Assembly: GCF_000613185.1 (NCBI RefSeq) | Contig: NZ_CCBB010000002.1 | Span: 186,001-250,000 of the forward strand | Reading direction: 5' to 3' | Source: Mycolicibacterium cosmeticum | GTDB taxonomy: Bacteria; Actinomycetota; Actinomycetes; Mycobacteriales; Mycobacteriaceae | DNA length: 64,000 bases | Shown: in pieces, positions 24,243 to 31,234 of the stretch | How positions within the stretch are numbered: the stretch's first letter is position 1 | Layout: every line of letters starts with the position of its first letter | Notes under the pieces: generated by a model | The model's database searches: none | Told to the model about the DNA's origin: nothing | What the model saw: the letters and a program-made list of their open reading frames with translations, nothing else | Made by a program: the position numbers and the translations under genes

Positions 24243-25022
24243 TCAGAGTTCGGCGATAGCCAGGTGCGATTCGGGCAAGATCTGGCCACCATCGACCACC
24301 AGCGACTGGCCGGTGATGTAGGCGGCCTCGTCGGTGGCGAAGAACAGTGCTGCGTTGCCGATGTCGGCCACCGAGCCCAGCCGGCCCGCCGGCACCGCGG
24401 AAGCCATTTGGTCGAGGTATTCCTGGCCCATTTCGCCGAGTCCCTCGGTGGCGATGTTGCCGGGCAGCACCGCGTTGACGGTGATGCGCTTCGGTGCCAA
24501 CTCCATGGCCGCGGTGCGCAGGAACCCCAGCTGTGCGGCCTTGCTGGCGCCGTAATGCGACCAGCCGGGGTAACCGGTGATCGGTCCGGTGATCGACGAC
24601 GTGATGATCACCCGGCCGTGCCCACTGGCGGCCAGGGCGGCCAGGGCGGCCTGCACGATGTACACGGTGCCCTTGAAATTCACCGCGAGCACGGCCTCGA
24701 TATCGTCGGGGGTGAGATCCTCCAGCCGGCCCGACGGGAAGATGCCCGCGTTGGCGCACACGATATCGACGCCGCCGTGCCGCTGCGCCGCCTCGGTCAC
24801 CACCCGGCGGCAGTCGGCGGGATCGGACACGTCGGCGCTGATGGCACTGACCTTGCCCGGCGCGCCGGCCAGGGCCGCGACGGTGCGGTCCAGATCGTCG
24901 GAATTGCGGCCGGTGATGACGACGTCGACCCCGGCGTTGGCGAAGGTCTCGGCGATGCCGCGGCCGATGCCCTTACTGGCGCCGGTGACGATGGCGGTGC
25001 GGCCCTGCAGTGACGTGAACAT
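24243..25022 (-). CDS. SDR oxidoreductase of the microcompartment operon (amino alcohol dehydrogenase-like)
   Basis: A classical SDR of 259 residues: NAD(P) motif TGASKGIG (about 14-21), NAG (NANAGIF region), catalytic Ser in ITSSITG and YGASK as the YxxxK dyad. RMM loci of Rhodococcus and Mycobacterium carry an SDR at this place, and the Rhodococcus one was described as an amino alcohol dehydrogenase. It could interconvert 1-amino-2-propanol and aminoacetone. No encapsulation peptide is visible, so it may work outside the shell. It lies 42 bases after the kinase gene. Confidence 0.85.
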
Positions 25023-25064: not shown

Positions 25065-26093
25065 TCAGAACAGCGTGTGGCCGGCGGAGCTCAGGTACCG
25101 TTCGGCCAGCGCGCAGCTGCCCGCGGCATAACTGATCGCCTTGGTGGCCGATTCCCTGGAGTGGCTGTGGCTGCCCATCCAGGCCAGCAGCAGCAGCCGG
25201 CGCAGCAGTACGAACGAGGCCAGCATGTCCTCGTCGCCGGCCGACAGCTCCCGCCGGGTACCGGGGCGAGCGGAGCGACGGGAGAAGTCGCGGTATCCAC
25301 TCACCCAGGCCGCCTGCCATTCCGGCAGCGCCGGATCATCCTCGATGAACGACACCGCGGTGCCGAAATCATAGAAATACCAGCCGAATCCGCAGTCGTC
25401 GAAGTCGATGACGGTGATCTGGTTGCCGGCGGCGGCATCGACCAGCAGGTTGGCCAGCCGCAGGTCGGCGTGGATCAGCCCGTACACCTCGGGTCCGGTG
25501 CCGTAGCCGGTCAGCCGTTCCCGCAGCAGCGCCTGGGCGCGCTCGAGCACGGCCCGTTCGGCCGGGCCCACGCCCTGGGCGTCCTGCCAGCGGCCCCACC
25601 GGGGTGTGCCGCCGAGACTGTGTTCCCAGTCCCAGGCGAAGCGGCCGAAGCCGGCCGGCCGCTGCCAGCTCCTGGCGTGGTCGTGCAGCGCCGCGGTGAT
25701 CCGGCCCAAGGTGTGGAAGTCCTGCGTCGTCAACGCGGTCTCGTCCGGTTCGACGCCGCCGACCATGCCGAAATGCACGACGTGACGCGGTGTTCCGGCG
25801 GCGCCGGGGTCGTCCACGGTGACCACCCGGCGACCGTCGCGGGCCGCGAGCACGGTGGGGACCGTGACATCGCTGTCCGCCCGCAGCGCGGCCAGCCAGT
25901 CCAGCTCGGATTCGATCTCGTGCGGCAGATGGTAGTTCTGCCGGTGCACCCGCAGGATCGACCGTGCGTCACCGTCGGTGACCAGATAGGTGGCGTTCTC
26001 GGACAGGTTGAGCAATCGCAGGTCGGCGTCGGCGGAGATGTCGTACTGCGCCAGCGCCTGTTCGGCCACCGCCCGGTCGTCGGTGATGCTCAC
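25065..26093 (-). CDS. Aminoglycoside-phosphotransferase-fold kinase (putative amino alcohol kinase)
   Basis: A 342-residue APH/choline-kinase-fold enzyme. The catalytic loop is HADLRLANLL with Asp210 and Asn215, and the metal Asp230 is in VIDFDDCGFG. In RMM loci this enzyme is proposed to phosphorylate 1-amino-2-propanol so that the class-III aminotransferase-like lyase can eliminate phosphate and ammonia to give propanal. The GTG start (MSITDD) overlaps the BMC stop (GTGA). The longer frame upstream runs antisense into BMC coding. A 20-bp repeat lies inside it at 25263-25282. Confidence 0.88.
   Translation of the reverse strand: MSITDDRAVAEQALAQYDISADADLRLLNLSENATYLVTDGDARSILRVHRQNYHLPHEIESELDWLAALRADSDVTVPTVLAARDGRRVVTVDDPGAAGTPRHVVHFGMVGGVEPDETALTTQDFHTLGRITAALHDHARSWQRPAGFGRFAWDWEHSLGGTPRWGRWQDAQGVGPAERAVLERAQALLRERLTGYGTGPEVYGLIHADLRLANLLVDAAAGNQITVIDFDDCGFGWYFYDFGTAVSFIEDDPALPEWQAAWVSGYRDFSRRSARPGTRRELSAGDEDMLASFVLLRRLLLLAWMGSHSHSRESATKAISYAAGSCALAERYLSSAGHTLF
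25263..25282. repeat. Short dispersed repeat, copy 1
   Basis: GGGGCGAGCGGAGCGACGGG occurs here inside the kinase gene and again at 39251-39270 between two ABC-importer genes. The 20 bases are identical in unrelated contexts. It is not palindromic. Confidence 0.5.
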
Positions 26094-26755
26094 GACTGAT
26101 CCTGCCCGTCGATGCCGGCCAGCACCTCGGTGATGTGATCGCGGGCCACCGTCACGTCGGCGGTGCTGCCGCCGATGTAGAGCCGCCCGGCCGCCCCGAT
26201 CATCTGCACATCGACCACGGTAAGTCCGGGGGCCACCCGTTCGGCCTCGTTCGCCGCGACGGCCGCGAACAGCGCCGGGGTCATCTCGTACACCAGCAGC
26301 GACTGGCCGGGCAGGATCATCGACGCCTGCCGGTTGCGGTTCAGGATCACCGCGTGCTGGTCGGTGATATCGGTGATGATGTCGTGATAGAGCACCCGGG
26401 GGCGGAGCTGGTCGGAGGCCTTGTTGCCGGTACCGGCCAGGATCGCCTCGCCGGCCCGGCGCACCTCGTCGAGATCGGCCGAGTGGATCTCCAGCACGCC
26501 GAACTGCCGCTCCACGTAGAGGATTCCCGGCTGGATGCCGGGCACCTCGCGCAGCGCCAGGTCGATCACCCGCTCGATCGCCAGAGCCGGCGACACCTCC
26601 ACGATGAGGGCGTGCTCGCCCGCGTAGGGCGGATACCCCCTGGCCCGGGTGGGGGTGCCGAGGTAGGCGGCGAACTGCCGCTGCAGATCCTGCACCAGCA
26701 GGTAGACGCGGATCTGGGTGCGAATCCGCGCGCTCGCCTGTGCTTCCGTCGGCAT
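26090..26755 (-). CDS. Microcompartment shell protein, tandem BMC domains (BMC-T, MSM0271-like)
   Basis: A 221-residue shell protein with two BMC domains: about 17-115 (HALIVEVSPALAIERVIDLAL, GILYVERQFGVLEIH) and about 130-215 (QSLLVYEMTPALFAAVAANEAE, RLYIGGS). Such proteins form pseudo-hexameric trimers. Gene order matches M. smegmatis MSM0271, reported as a double-ringed trimer with closed pores thought to surround the pentameric vertex. A gap of two bases separates it from the BMC-H gene, and the kinase start overlaps its stop. Confidence 0.92.
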   Translation of the reverse strand: MPTEAQASARIRTQIRVYLLVQDLQRQFAAYLGTPTRARGYPPYAGEHALIVEVSPALAIERVIDLALREVPGIQPGILYVERQFGVLEIHSADLDEVRRAGEAILAGTGNKASDQLRPRVLYHDIITDITDQHAVILNRNRQASMILPGQSLLVYEMTPALFAAVAANEAERVAPGLTVVDVQMIGAAGRLYIGGSTADVTVARDHITEVLAGIDGQDQS

Positions 26756-26757
26756 GG

Positions 26758-27039
26758 CTACTTGCTGGTGACCGAGAAGTGCGCCCCGAGTTCACCGTGC
26801 GGGCGCGGGATGACGTGCACGCTGACCAGTTCGCCCACCTGCGAGGCGGTTTCGGCGCCGGCCTCGGTGGCGGCCTTGACCGCACCCACCTCACCGGTGA
26901 CGATCACGGCGACCAGGCCGTCGCCCACCTGCTGACGATCGGTGATGGTCACGTTGGCGGCCTTGACCATGGCGTCGGCTGCGGCGAGCGCGGCCACGAA
27001 GCCCTTGGTTTCGATGAGGCCGATTGCATTGCTGGACAT
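26758..27039 (-). CDS. Microcompartment hexameric shell protein (BMC-H, MSM0272-like)
   Basis: A 93-residue single-domain BMC protein, starting MSSNAIGLIETKGFVAALAAADAM, which is the canonical BMC-H opening. GDGLVAVIVTGEVGAVKAATEAG forms the second helix region. This is expected to be the bulk facet tile of the shell. It is the smallest and most canonical of the four shell genes here and lies between the pentamer and tandem-domain genes, as in the M. smegmatis RMM. Confidence 0.96.
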   Translation of the reverse strand: MSSNAIGLIETKGFVAALAAADAMVKAANVTITDRQQVGDGLVAVIVTGEVGAVKAATEAGAETASQVGELVSVHVIPRPHGELGAHFSVTSK

Positions 27040-27051
27040 GAACTTTTCTCC

Positions 27052-27300
27052 TTATTTGTTGGGATTGGTGTCGATGGATCCGATGATGAGGGCGTCGACC
27101 GGGGGTGGGGTGCCGGTGAACCAGCTCGACGCCACCGAGCCCTGGGCGATCAGCACCCGCTCGCCGACGCCGGTGCCCAGCACGTCGAAGGCGATCAGGG
27201 TGGCGCCGCCGTCGACCTGGACCTCCAGGAACGCGCCGGCCGGGATACCGTCGACGCGGCGAGTGGACCAGACGTTGCCGGTCACGGTCGCTGATATCAT
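27052..27300 (-). CDS. Microcompartment vertex pentamer (BMC-P, EutN/CcmL; MSM0273-like)
   Basis: An 82-residue EutN/CcmL-family protein. It starts MISATVTGNVWSTRRVDGIP, followed by LIAFDVLGTGVGERVLIAQGS and IIGSIDT, the usual beta-barrel pattern. Five copies cap the icosahedral vertices. Its ATG overlaps the stop of the PduM-like gene (ATGA). It fits the M. smegmatis MSM0273 slot. Longer reading frames upstream are shadows of neighbouring genes. Confidence 0.95.
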   Translation of the reverse strand: MISATVTGNVWSTRRVDGIPAGAFLEVQVDGGATLIAFDVLGTGVGERVLIAQGSVASSWFTGTPPPVDALIIGSIDTNPNK

Positions 27301-27812
27301 TTTCGCTCCTCCGTCGCTGGGGCGATCTTTTGCGCACTCTTCGTGATGGTGATGCCGAGCGTTCTGGCCTTCTCCCGCGCCAGGGGCGTGAGCACCGCAC
27401 GCGGTCCGAGCACCAGCGTGCCGCCGGCCAAGTCGGCGATCTGTCGTTCGGTTACCGCACCGCTGTCGAACCGGTGCACCGTCCCGCCCGGCGCGGACCG
27501 GCCGGTGCCGCCGAGGCGGAAGCGCAGCCGGCCGGCCTTGATATCGGCCCGGTTCTTCGGATTCTCGAACAGCCGCAGCAGTTTCCGGACGAAGCCGTCC
27601 AGGTCGGCGTCGGTGGCCAGCCGCACCTCCTCGGTGCGCACGCGACCGTCCGCCGCGCGCGGGCCGGTGGGCTGCAGGCCCATCTGCTCGGCGACGCCGG
27701 CGGGCTGAACCGGTGGGGCGGGCGGCTGCGGTGCCGGCGCCTTGAGCCCGGTGACGGCTTCGCGCACCACCTCCCGCACCAGCGCACGCAGCTCCTCGGA
27801 CGAGATGCTCAT
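27297..27812 (-). CDS. PduM-like microcompartment protein with N-terminal targeting helix (MSM0274-like)
   Basis: A 171-residue protein of no named domain. Residues 4-20 form an amphipathic helix (SSEELRALVREVVREAV) followed by a Pro/Ala linker at about 24-40, the usual layout of an encapsulation peptide. The body is mixed alpha/beta and ends LVLGPRAVLTPLAREKAR then GITI, which recalls the C-terminal T-x-LARDxAR-x-x-x-I segment of PduM as I remember it. PduM is a Pdu assembly factor of similar length. It sits among shell genes with 4-base overlaps on both sides. Function is inferred. Confidence 0.78.
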   Translation of the reverse strand: MSISSEELRALVREVVREAVTGLKAPAPQPPAPPVQPAGVAEQMGLQPTGPRAADGRVRTEEVRLATDADLDGFVRKLLRLFENPKNRADIKAGRLRFRLGGTGRSAPGGTVHRFDSGAVTERQIADLAGGTLVLGPRAVLTPLAREKARTLGITITKSAQKIAPATEERK

Positions 27813-28408
27813 GTCCGTGCCAGCGCATCCCGCGCCGCGTCGGCGGCCTGGCGCACGTCGGCCTCGGTGCCGGACAGGTACACCCGGCCGGTGGCACCGA
27901 TCATCCGGAAGTCGACGACCTTGATATCGGCGGCCTTTTCGGCCTCGTTGGTCGCCAGGATGGCATAGGACGCCGGCTGCACCTCGAGCACGAACAGCGA
28001 TTCCCCGGCCAGCACCATCGAACCGATCTTGTTGCGGTTGATCAGGAAAGCGTGTTGATGGTCGACGCTGGAGATGATCCGCGAGGCCAGGATGGTCGGG
28101 CGCACCGCCGCGTGCGAATCACCGCCGAGCGAGTCCAGCGCCGCATCGGCGGCGGCCTTCACCGCGCCGGTCTCACCGTGGAACTCCAGGTAGCCGAACT
28201 GCCGTTCCACCACCAGGATTCCGGCCTTCACCTCGGCATGCTTGAGCGCGACATCGGTCACGCCCTCGATGTCCAGGCCCGGGGCCACCTCGATGATCTG
28301 GGCGGCCTGGTTCGCCCGCGGTAACGCACCCTTGATCCAGGTGCCCAGGTACGACATCGTCTGCGGCTGCAGCCGATCGATGAAGATGAAGGAACGCAGT
28401 TCAGCCAC
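27809..28408 (-). CDS. Microcompartment shell protein, tandem BMC domains (BMC-T, MSM0275-like)
   Basis: A 199-residue shell protein with two BMC domains: about 1-100 (SFIFIDRLQPQTMSYLGTW, GILVVERQFGYLEFHGE) and about 115-195 (ESLFVLEVQPASYAILATNEAEKA, RVYLSG). It resembles the other tandem protein here. The gene position matches MSM0275, which in M. smegmatis assembled as strips and was proposed to line facet edges. GTG start (MAELRSF) four bases after the aldehyde dehydrogenase stop. Confidence 0.92.
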   Translation of the reverse strand: MAELRSFIFIDRLQPQTMSYLGTWIKGALPRANQAAQIIEVAPGLDIEGVTDVALKHAEVKAGILVVERQFGYLEFHGETGAVKAAADAALDSLGGDSHAAVRPTILASRIISSVDHQHAFLINRNKIGSMVLAGESLFVLEVQPASYAILATNEAEKAADIKVVDFRMIGATGRVYLSGTEADVRQAADAARDALART

Positions 28409-28412
28409 GGAT

Positions 28413-29960
28413 CTACCTCTTGATCAGTTGAGCGAGTTCTTCGACGACAAGGGCGCGCAGCTCGGCGCGCAGGGCGTCGAGATTCGGATCGGCAGACCGG
28501 GGCGGGGCCTGATATGCGCGCCGGGCGGGGGCCGCGGCACCGCCGGGGTCGTTGGATGCCCGCGGATAGGCAGGTACCGCACCGGCCGGTGCCTGCCATG
28601 GGCTGATCGCGCTGAAATCACCCATCGGCACTCCGGATTCGGCGTTGTACGCGATGCGCGCCCAGTTGACCAGGTGCTGCGGTGCCAGGTTCTCCCCGAT
28701 GGAGCTGCGGCCCACGAATCCGGTGCCGATGGTCATCGACGGTGCCAGGTTGGTGTCCAGGCCGGAGCTGCCGGTGCTGTTGCCGACATTCACCGAGACC
28801 CGCAAGACCGGCACCTGCGCCGCGAAATCGGCGATCACCGAGGGGTTTTCACTGTGGATGGCGGCCGAGTGCCCGGCGCCGCCGATCCGCACCACCGCCC
28901 GGGCGGCCCGGATACCGCGCGCCGCGTCGGCGGCGGTGGTCATGCCGAGCACCGGGGAGAGCTTCTCGTGGGCCAGCATCTCCTCGGCGACCACGTCACC
29001 GAACGGGGCGATCAGCACCCTGGTCTTGGGGGTGACGCGCAGGCCGGCCTGCCCGGCGATCCACGCGGCGTCCCGGCCGACCACCTCGGTGTTGAGGTGG
29101 CCGTCGGCGAACATGTAGGCCCGCAGCCGGCGGGCCCCGTCCTCGTCGAGGATGTGCGCACCGGCCCGGGTGAGCGCGCCACGCAGCTTGTCGGCGATCG
29201 TCTCCTCGGCGATCAGCACCGATTCGTTGGTGCACAGCACCGAATTGTCGAAGGCCTTGCTGTCGACGATGCGCTTGGCCGCGGCGGTGATATCGGCGCT
29301 GGCGTCGACGAACACCGGCACATTGCCGGGACCGACACCCAGGGCCGGATTGCCCGACGAGTAGGCCGCACGCACCACGCCGGTGCCGCCGGTCGCGACG
29401 ATGACGTCGGTGCGCTCGTCGGCCATCAGCGCCTGCACCAACGGGATGGACGGCTCGTCGACCACAGCCACGATGCCGTCCGGAGCGCCCGCGGCGACCG
29501 CGGCCTCGGCCAGCACCCGGGCCGCGTCGGCCGAGCAGCGCTTGGCCCGCGGATGCGGGGCGATGACGACGGCATTGCGGGTCATCAGCGCCAGGATGGT
29601 CTTGAAGTACACCGTGGCAACGGGATTGGTGGTCGGCGTCAGCGCCAGCACCACCCCGGCGGGGCGCGGCAACTCGACGATCTTGCGGGCGTGGTCGACG
29701 CGCGGGGACACGAAGTCCTGGCCGGTGTAGTAGTCGACGATGCCGCGCGAGCAGGCCCGGTTCTTGGTCACCTTGTCGGCCACCACGCCCATGCCGGTCT
29801 CGGCCACCGCGTCGGCGGCGAACCGTTCGGCCGCGGCGTAGCCGGCCTCGGCCACCGCGGACACGATCGCCGACACGGTGCCCGCATCGTATTCGGCGTA
29901 GGCGGCGGCGGCCCAGCGGGCGCGTTCCAGCATGTGACCGGCCTGTGCGGTCGTTGTCAT
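28413..29960 (-). CDS. CoA-acylating aldehyde dehydrogenase, microcompartment lumen enzyme
   Basis: A 515-residue PduP/EutE-type enzyme that converts an aldehyde (propanal expected) plus CoA and NAD+ to acyl-CoA. The catalytic Cys243 is in AFDNSVLCTNE, and the cofactor loop is GGTGVVRAAYSSG. A Pro/Ala-rich linker after about residue 455 leads to an amphipathic C-terminal helix at 494-515 (LDALRAELRALVVEELAQL), a predicted encapsulation peptide that shares ELRALV with the N-terminus of the PduM-like protein. Start and stop overlap or abut the neighbours, consistent with one operon. Confidence 0.93.
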   Translation of the reverse strand: MTTTAQAGHMLERARWAAAAYAEYDAGTVSAIVSAVAEAGYAAAERFAADAVAETGMGVVADKVTKNRACSRGIVDYYTGQDFVSPRVDHARKIVELPRPAGVVLALTPTTNPVATVYFKTILALMTRNAVVIAPHPRAKRCSADAARVLAEAAVAAGAPDGIVAVVDEPSIPLVQALMADERTDVIVATGGTGVVRAAYSSGNPALGVGPGNVPVFVDASADITAAAKRIVDSKAFDNSVLCTNESVLIAEETIADKLRGALTRAGAHILDEDGARRLRAYMFADGHLNTEVVGRDAAWIAGQAGLRVTPKTRVLIAPFGDVVAEEMLAHEKLSPVLGMTTAADAARGIRAARAVVRIGGAGHSAAIHSENPSVIADFAAQVPVLRVSVNVGNSTGSSGLDTNLAPSMTIGTGFVGRSSIGENLAPQHLVNWARIAYNAESGVPMGDFSAISPWQAPAGAVPAYPRASNDPGGAAAPARRAYQAPPRSADPNLDALRAELRALVVEELAQLIKR

Positions 29961-31234
29961 GATTTCCTTCCCCGCGCAGCGTTTTTGGCTCGGCCGACCG
30001 CGACGGACAGGCGGTCCAGCACGTCCTCACAGATGTCGCGCGACAGCAGCACACCGGGTTTGAACTGCAGAACCCGTGGATCCAGGGTGGAGAAGATGGC
30101 CCACACCCCGTTCTCGTACAGTTCGCGCATCACGAATTTGGCGCCCTCGGGGTGGTCGAACTCGAGTCCGATCACCACGCCGTTCTGCCGGATCCCGACG
30201 AACCAGTCCGGGTGATCGGCCTGGATGCGGTGCAGCCCGTGGTCGAAAAGGTCGGCGATGTAGTGCACCATCGAGCGCACCTCCGGCCGGGTACAGATCT
30301 CCAGCGTCTTGATCGCGGCGACGCAACCGAGCTCGGCACCACCGAAGGTGGAGATGTGGCCGAAGCCGTCCTGGTCCAGCCACTGGGCGGCCCGGTCACC
30401 CAGCAGTGCGGCGGTGATCGGGTACATGCCGCCGGACAGGCCTTTTCCGGTGACCAGGATGTCGGGTTCGATCCGGTGCTTGGTGATGCCCCACAGTTCG
30501 CCGGTGCGCATCAGACCGGTTTGTACCTCGTCGGCGATGTACAGCGTGCCGTGTTTTTCGGTGGCCGCCTTGACCGCCTCCAGGTAACCCGGTGCCGGCA
30601 GCGGGAATCCGTACGTCGCCGGGATGGTCTCCATGATCACCGCGGCGATGTCACCGGCGGCCAGCACCCGTTCCATGGCGTCGATGTCGTTGAAGGGCAC
30701 CTGGAGGAACTCGTCGGGGTTGTCGGACAGGAACAATTTGGCGAAACGGTCATCGCCGGTGGCCACGGCCAGGCCGGTGTGGCCGTGATAGGCCTTGACG
30801 ATCGAGACGATCTTGCGGCGCTGGGTGGCATGCCGGGCGCTCTTGAGCGCGATGTCGATGGCCTCACCGCCACCCGAACCGAAGGCGACCTTCGTGATGG
30901 ACGCCGGCGCGGTCTCGACCAGACGCTGCGCCAGTGCGGTGCGGGCCACCGAGGGGAAGTGGTGGTTACCGACGTCGAAATGCGCCATGCCCTCGGAAAG
31001 AGCTTGCATCACTTCGGGATTACGGTGGCCGATGTTGTAGGTCCCACCGTTGAGGTGCATGTCGATGAGCCGGCGCCCACTCATGTCCCACAGGAAGTAC
31101 CCCTCGCGGCGGTCGATCACCAGATCGACACCGGAGTCGGTCCAGAACTGGGTCTTGTCCGGATTCCAGAACGTCTTCGCGCGCTCCAGCACCTCGGTCT
31201 TCGATTCGAACGAGAACGTGCCGTAGTCGTACAT
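29957..31234 (-). CDS. Class-III aminotransferase-fold PLP enzyme (putative aminopropanol-phosphate lyase)
   Basis: A 425-residue fold-type I PLP enzyme: Asp235 in YIADEVQTG contacts the pyridine nitrogen and Lys264 in VTGKGLSGGMYP should bind PLP. Members of this class also act as O-phospho-amine phospholyases, which would turn 1-amino-2-propanol phosphate into propanal, ammonia and phosphate. The kinase and aldehyde dehydrogenase in this operon make that more likely than transamination. It is the first gene of the microcompartment operon, divergent from an APC permease. No encapsulation peptide is evident. Confidence 0.88.
   Translation of the reverse strand: MYDYGTFSFESKTEVLERAKTFWNPDKTQFWTDSGVDLVIDRREGYFLWDMSGRRLIDMHLNGGTYNIGHRNPEVMQALSEGMAHFDVGNHHFPSVARTALAQRLVETAPASITKVAFGSGGGEAIDIALKSARHATQRRKIVSIVKAYHGHTGLAVATGDDRFAKLFLSDNPDEFLQVPFNDIDAMERVLAAGDIAAVIMETIPATYGFPLPAPGYLEAVKAATEKHGTLYIADEVQTGLMRTGELWGITKHRIEPDILVTGKGLSGGMYPITAALLGDRAAQWLDQDGFGHISTFGGAELGCVAAIKTLEICTRPEVRSMVHYIADLFDHGLHRIQADHPDWFVGIRQNGVVIGLEFDHPEGAKFVMRELYENGVWAIFSTLDPRVLQFKPGVLLSRDICEDVLDRLSVAVGRAKNAARGRKS

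Follow-up and report, generated by a model that had tools for sequence, protein, structure and literature searches.

Gene X is our label for the 171-codon gene (ATG start, TGA stop) at positions 27812–27297 on the minus strand of a 64,000-nucleotide stretch of the Mycolicibacterium cosmeticum contig NZ_CCBB010000002.1, referred to here as the window, within which all positions are counted. The gene lies in a bacterial microcompartment (BMC) locus of the RMM type, a type name taken from PMC4207490 (statements cited from papers refer here to the portions of those papers available to us), and its product is, by analogy and with a probability that we place at roughly 70%, a core-to-shell linker of the RMM microcompartment. 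The C-terminal segment of X is related both to the portion of EutQ that binds the shell and to the PduM end, and X is therefore likely to hold enzyme core and shell together. Somewhat less firmly, we favor the joint proposal that core and shell are linked in many metabolosomes by one mobile shell-docking module of 45 residues that apparently has no name yet; X, PduM, the TIGR02536 proteins, EutQ, and stand-alone mini-proteins would then be variations on a single linker plan, modules on EutT, PduL, and lactate dehydrogenase (LDH)-like enzymes would pin these enzymes to the shell, and PduM would be a decayed BMC flavoprotein that has kept two anchors.

The gene itself is observed directly. The ATG of X and the stop of the BMC-T gene upstream (27809–28408) overlap by 4 bases, and the TGA of X shares 4 bases (27300–27297) with the ATG of the downstream pentamer gene of the EutN/CcmL type, so that the open reading frame between shell genes with 4-base overlaps described in the original prediction is confirmed on the minus strand with both overlaps present. 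The 2256 homologues found at E ≤ 1e-3 indicate that X is a real gene and no chance open reading frame, and among the best 120 of the 2256 all that carry an organism name belong to Mycobacterium or Mycolicibacterium. The M. smegmatis gene is presumably MSMEG_0274.

The C-terminal module of X

The C-terminal 40–46 residues of X are, on profile comparison, homologous to the end of PduM. Scores from hhalign were judged against a null of 200 column permutations, for X versus PduM those of the X profile. Comparison of 55 X sequences with 24 PduM sequences gives a probability of 92.4% over 40 columns at 38% identity, aligned end to end, and with 61 X sequences the score is 47.9 (93.0%) against a permutation maximum of 19.6 (0/200); overall, the X–PduM probabilities with query and template unswapped are 92–95%, which bears out the earlier claim that the C-terminus resembles the end of PduM. 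When the 55 X sequences were compared with the 18,950 models of NCBIfam, the top four models by number of matching sequences were two for PduM (46 and 44 sequences), TIGR02536 (17), and EutQ (6), all of them BMC families, and PF15953 was matched by 40/55 sequences. At the level of single proteins, the X C-terminus scores 33.6 with E. coli PduM, 31.3 with E. coli EutQ, and 20.7 with EutT, compared with at most 17.7 for 28 other single proteins from RMM, pdu, and eut loci.

Several results weigh against this relationship or restrict its reach. The PduM–X probability falls to 84.2% when query and template are swapped and to 64.6% when 12 X sequences are compared with one PduM, a single X gives sub-threshold E-values of 0.0072, 0.0082, and 0.074 with the PduM models, and X lies below the library cut-offs for PduM and EutQ. 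For PduM (PF15953, TIGR04493, and NF011957) it attains 13.4 of 27, 16.0 of 50, and 16.3 of 179 bits, and because these cut-offs are missed X is regarded as a counterpart of PduM and not as a member of its family. Weak matches to single library models (E 0.007–0.2), together with the absence of a sequence match for X in the PDB and of a significant Foldseek match for the X model, would also be expected if X were simply an encapsulated enzyme or accessory protein and its C-terminal motif a short helix cap that arose by convergence. This explanation is very improbable, however, since 0/200 permutations reach the scores of X or its C-terminus with PduM, flavoprotein, LDH-like enzyme, and EutQ, since BMC families lead among the NCBIfam models, and since the gene slot is conserved as described below.

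As judged from its distribution among proteins, the segment is a mobile module and not a hallmark of PduM. It is C-terminal in X (residues 113–158, 27339–27476, minus strand), in BMC flavoproteins and TIGR02536 proteins, and in some PduL enzymes, it is N-terminal in EutQ, EutT, and an LDH-like enzyme, and it also occurs in mini-proteins. The X C-terminus scores 49.7 with the flavoprotein and 60.0 with the N-terminus of the LDH-like enzyme; X scores 38.8 (90.8%, or 95.0% for the C-terminal part alone) with EutQ N-termini and 43.4 with the mini-proteins; EutQ scores 75.2 with the mini-proteins and 54.7 with TIGR02536; and PduM scores 35.8 with the mini-proteins, in each case with 0/200 permutations. 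The EutQ alignment with the module covers approximately residues 5–47, within which the published EutQ segment 9–41 falls. Three further pairs also stand at 0/200, but their low probabilities count against a module of such breadth: 38.9% for X–EutT (score 26.5), 18.5% for X–TIGR02536 (28.2), and 10.4% for PduM–EutQ (21.6, with a permutation maximum of 20.7). In the PduM–EutT comparison the score is reached by 2/200 permutations and the match falls outside the module. Single Cetobacterium and C. difficile proteins have low module scores of 11–12 bits, and the Cetobacterium protein is under the TIGR02536 cut-off (86.2 of 152.6 bits).

A search of 296 actinobacterial genomes with PF15953 returned a single protein, a flavoprotein that is encoded in a pdu locus and ends in the segment. 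A module model built from 25 segments and searched in 396 actinobacterial genomes identifies 35 places in 31/396 genomes at E ≤ 0.01. At E < 1e-3 there are 27 places, and 25 have BMC shell genes in their flanks, a raw count for which the flanks are short on some contigs; the value is 22/24 on excluding places that supplied rows of the model (G000, G039, G288). The two places without BMC genes are L119, on a contig of 6.6 kb, and L131, on one of 16.8 kb, and 2/8 of the weaker places (E 0.002–0.01) have BMC genes beside them. Within this sample of one phylum, the module is observed to be nearly confined to BMC loci. Its carriers are X-like proteins, PduL-type enzymes (PF06130, with a C-terminal module, within one family), EutQ, EutT-like and LDH-like proteins, four mini-proteins of 86–107 residues whose layout we read as module, linker, and helix-like C-terminal stretch, and one mini-protein of 132 residues. 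Distant relatives of X include short forms from which the Pro/Ala linker is missing (L002, L012), and in other BMC loci the segment begins an enzyme like LDH or malate dehydrogenase (L013–L016; the enzyme body in L013 is PF00056). In the E. coli pdu and eut stretches examined, the module is present only on PduM, EutQ, and EutT. The statement in the original prediction that PduM is known only from Pdu organelles agrees with a 2025 paper that knows of no sequence homology to PduM beyond Pdu organelles and calls for more work on what PduM does and by what mechanism (PMC12108088), but the segment it shares with X is not confined to Pdu.

Two other carriers were seen in passing. On the 16.8-kb contig lacking BMC genes, the module ends a class II aldolase (L131:8520–9368; PF00596, E 1e-17), and in Acetoanaerobium (L165:598–1805) an 89-residue open reading frame that begins with a module comes after a PduL-type protein (PF06130) whose module is C-terminal.

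The gene slot before the pentamer gene

The four genes BMC-T, X, BMC-P, and BMC-H are complete in 40/42 related mycobacterial loci, the two loci that lack one or two of them being excluded from the slot count; they occur in that order in 38 loci and are tightly adjacent in 37, as judged by approximate gene starts. X ends in ATGA in 32 of the 40 loci (overlaps in other species are judged from the last four gene bases only). X also stands upstream of BMC-P in L063, L064 (twice), L070–L072, and L103. In L064 (7974–13475) the block of BMC-T, X, BMC-P, and BMC-H is present as a tandem duplicate with identical match scores.

A module-bearing gene directly upstream of a BMC-P gene is likewise found in E. 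coli pdu (pduM–pduN), in the actinobacterial pdu locus L069 (flavoprotein–pduN), and, as a TIGR02536-type gene, in the eut loci of C. difficile, Cetobacterium, Fusobacterium, and Listeria. This arrangement recurs in pdu, eut, and RMM-type loci, so that X occupies the pduM slot, and the BMC-P-adjacent slot is common to the PduM-like module carriers. In the loci examined the slot before BMC-P is not occupied by EutQ, EutT, PduL-type, or LDH-type carriers. Exceptions to the slot are Enterococcus raffinosus, in which the BMC-P gene is upstream of EutQ, Acetoanaerobium, in which the module genes do not adjoin BMC-P, and E. coli, in which neither eutQ nor eutT adjoins eutN.

Anatomy of X and its proposed role as a linker

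The AlphaFold2 model of X is of low confidence (mean predicted local distance difference test score, pLDDT, of 61; predicted template-modeling score of 0.31; best near residues 111–160) and consists of a helix at residues 5–21, a disordered linker, and two small folded parts. The predicted N-terminal helix (residues 5–22, 27747–27800), proposed to be of the encapsulation-peptide type, is followed by a flexible Pro/Ala-rich linker (residues 23–56, 27645–27746), a conserved alpha/beta middle (residues 57–101, 27510–27644, beta-alpha-alpha-beta in the model), a hinge (residues 102–112), and the proposed shell-docking module, all on the minus strand. The fraction of the majority residue over 55 sequences is 0.86, 0.65, 0.84, 0.47, and 0.89 for these five parts in order, the highest value being that of the module. 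The expected Pro/Ala linker is present, 13/26 residues in 23–48 being P or A, and residues 21–60 have pLDDT block means of 42–49. The X of the window carries approximately 10 extra C-terminal residues (27297–27338); the tail after residue 158 is mostly absent in relatives, which end soon after the module.

The N-terminal helix had been described as amphipathic, and while a helix is indeed predicted, its hydrophobic moment of 0.53 is reached by 4.2% of 2000 shuffles and is thus only mildly above chance. The X N-terminus scores 34.3 with the N-terminal helix of BMC flavoproteins and 18.7 with PduM over 12 columns only (both 0/200 permutations), and the PduM model has a predicted N-terminal helix at residues 3–21, compared with 5–21 in X. 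The motif ELRALVxE is common to the N-terminal helix of X and the C-terminus of the aldehyde dehydrogenase encoded in the locus, a match equaled by 31/2000 shuffles.

X and PduM share a predicted N-terminal helix, the homologous C-terminal segment, and a gene position directly upstream of BMC-P, whereas PduM has a flavoprotein-like middle and lacks a Pro/Ala linker, in contrast to the tether and the short, unmatched middle of X. These common features, with the C-terminus at the protein end in both, would be expected if X were a true PduM orthologue of wholly shared ancestry and strongly diverged middle, as would the alignment of full-length X with BMC flavoproteins over 88–90 columns, middle included. 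The score of the X middle is, however, reached by 68/200 permutations in comparison with PduM, and in comparison with the flavoprotein by 26/200 for the middle alone (the X model being of low confidence). With the PduM cut-offs missed and the module present on EutQ, EutT, TIGR02536/flavoprotein-type, PduL, and LDH-like proteins as well, one-to-one equivalence is not supported and orthologous descent of the whole protein is unlikely. The description of X as the RMM counterpart of PduM thus fits its position, helix, and C-terminal segment, and by analogy its role as a linker, but is too narrow. The PduM middle (E. coli L061:5625–6116; Salmonella PduM model) looks like a decayed flavoprotein.

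Other carriers resemble X in different ways. TIGR02536 proteins and BMC flavoproteins (PF02441, e.g., the body of the L003 protein) have a C-terminal module, an N-terminal helix, and the slot before BMC-P, but also a flavoprotein or related body, none of which is detectable in X; the C. difficile TIGR02536 protein has no Pfam flavoprotein match, yet the TIGR02536 and flavoprotein profiles align over 141 columns. The EutT N-terminus, PduL-type PF06130 enzymes, and the LDH-like BMC enzyme have the module at one end, as X does, attached to catalytic bodies, none of which is recognized in X. The N-terminal region of EutQ (1–99) has a homologous module, a flexible linker, and cargo-side helices elsewhere in the chain; unlike in X, the module comes first, in a published prediction of four helices (PMC12487888), and a cupin domain follows. 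The cupin family PF06249 is not found in X, for which PF15953 is the sole Pfam match listed at E ≤ 10. CcmN, CsoS2, and PduB 1–37 are described as core-shell linkers that work alike (PMC12487888, PMC9132943), a likeness of function.

Salmonella EutQ 1–99 links shell and cargo and requires its flexible part; EutQ without residues 9–41 (H1/H2) is found with cargo and away from the shell, and EutQ without residues 62–99 (H3/H4) remains on the shell (PMC12487888, a paper from whose main text PduM is absent). The H1/H2 pair, to which the module corresponds in EutQ, is reported to be what holds the shell. Loss of PduM leads to partial separation of core and shell, and PduM 1–23 is an encapsulation signal (PMC9132943, PMC12108088). 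Since deletion data exist for this segment in EutQ, reasoning on the function of X can lean on EutQ no less than on PduM. Following these precedents, the N-terminal helix of X would lie in the enzyme core and act like an encapsulation peptide, perhaps together with the C-terminal end of the aldehyde dehydrogenase, the Pro/Ala-rich stretch would be a tether between helix and module, and the 45-residue C-terminal module would dock on the inner face of the shell, the BMC-T/BMC-H tiles or their vicinity being the likeliest site. X would thus be a variant of BMC linker; in the open literature, with subscription papers mostly outside that scope, no paper joining PduM to EutQ or RMM was found, and there may be prior notice.

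The core side and the shell side of this linker each face contrary evidence. The C-terminal segment of the aldehyde dehydrogenase lacks a hydrophobic moment (0.06, reached by 95.7% of shuffles) and in four helices known or presumed to be signals (PduM, PduP, PduL, EutE) the moments do not exceed shuffles, so that the mild excess in X is no proof of the core side. EutQ H1/H2 are described as two helices, whereas the low-confidence X model has strands around one main helix, and the flexible part of EutQ is also given a possible shell contact (PMC12487888). In Salmonella lacking PduB 1–37, PduM is with cargo and has no significant association with shell assemblies (PMC9132943), which indicates that the PduM module alone is insufficient there and that docking may need a BMC-T partner. 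The presence of the module on enzymes makes a role other than shell docking possible.

The last two observations would also be expected if the module were a core-internal or enzyme-enzyme docking piece, similar to a peripheral subunit-binding domain (PSBD), and X organized the core and not the shell. Pfam E3_binding is matched by 6/55 X sequences (best E 0.0059), and four PSBD segments of this genome, two of them identical, score 30.5 (90.2%, 0/200 permutations) with EutQ N-termini, 22.1 (0/200) with the X C-terminus, and 21.6 (1/200) with whole X. This likeness, however, spans 17–29 columns, essentially one helix, the match to PF02817 covering 18 columns at the first helix for X and 29 columns for EutQ, and EutQ without residues 9–41 parted from the shell while being kept with cargo (PMC12487888). 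A core-docking role is accordingly judged improbable, and core-to-shell linkage is preferred. The TPLAR helix of the module (e.g., window 27339–27476) resembles the first helix of the PSBD of 2-oxoacid dehydrogenases, possibly by chance convergence.

The surrounding locus and the meaning of the module

The genes of the locus are arranged in the order permease, class-III aminotransferase, aldehyde dehydrogenase, BMC-T, X, BMC-P, BMC-H, second BMC-T-like gene, APH-type kinase, SDR, and GntR/UTRA regulator, and all those assigned coordinates here are on the minus strand. The 5′ neighbor of X, BMC-T, matches PF00936 in two stretches (E 4.5e-12), and the pentamer gene (27052–27300; EutN/CcmL/PduN type) matches PF03319 (E 5.5e-18; 27052–27306 tested). 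BMC-H (26758–27039) matches PF00936 (E 3.2e-27). The second BMC-T-like shell gene (26090–26755) is 44% identical to the first over 188 columns (E 2e-45), and despite this identity it has zero Pfam matches at E ≤ 10. The enzymes are the aldehyde dehydrogenase (28413–29960; PF00171, E 7e-23), the C-terminal end of which, with its ELRALV motif, is a candidate encapsulation peptide, the class-III aminotransferase (29957–31234; PF00202, E 1.6e-69), the APH-type kinase (25065–26093; PF01636), and the SDR (24243–25022; PF13561).

The end of PduM is tied here to the shell-binding part of EutQ, and the same piece is found in RMM and other BMC loci, which turns separate puzzles into one testable rule. 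The module is a small piece that may be deleted or transplanted in tests of core-shell linkage, it aids the annotation of unnamed proteins in BMC loci, and it may serve as a tag by which enzymes are pinned to shells.
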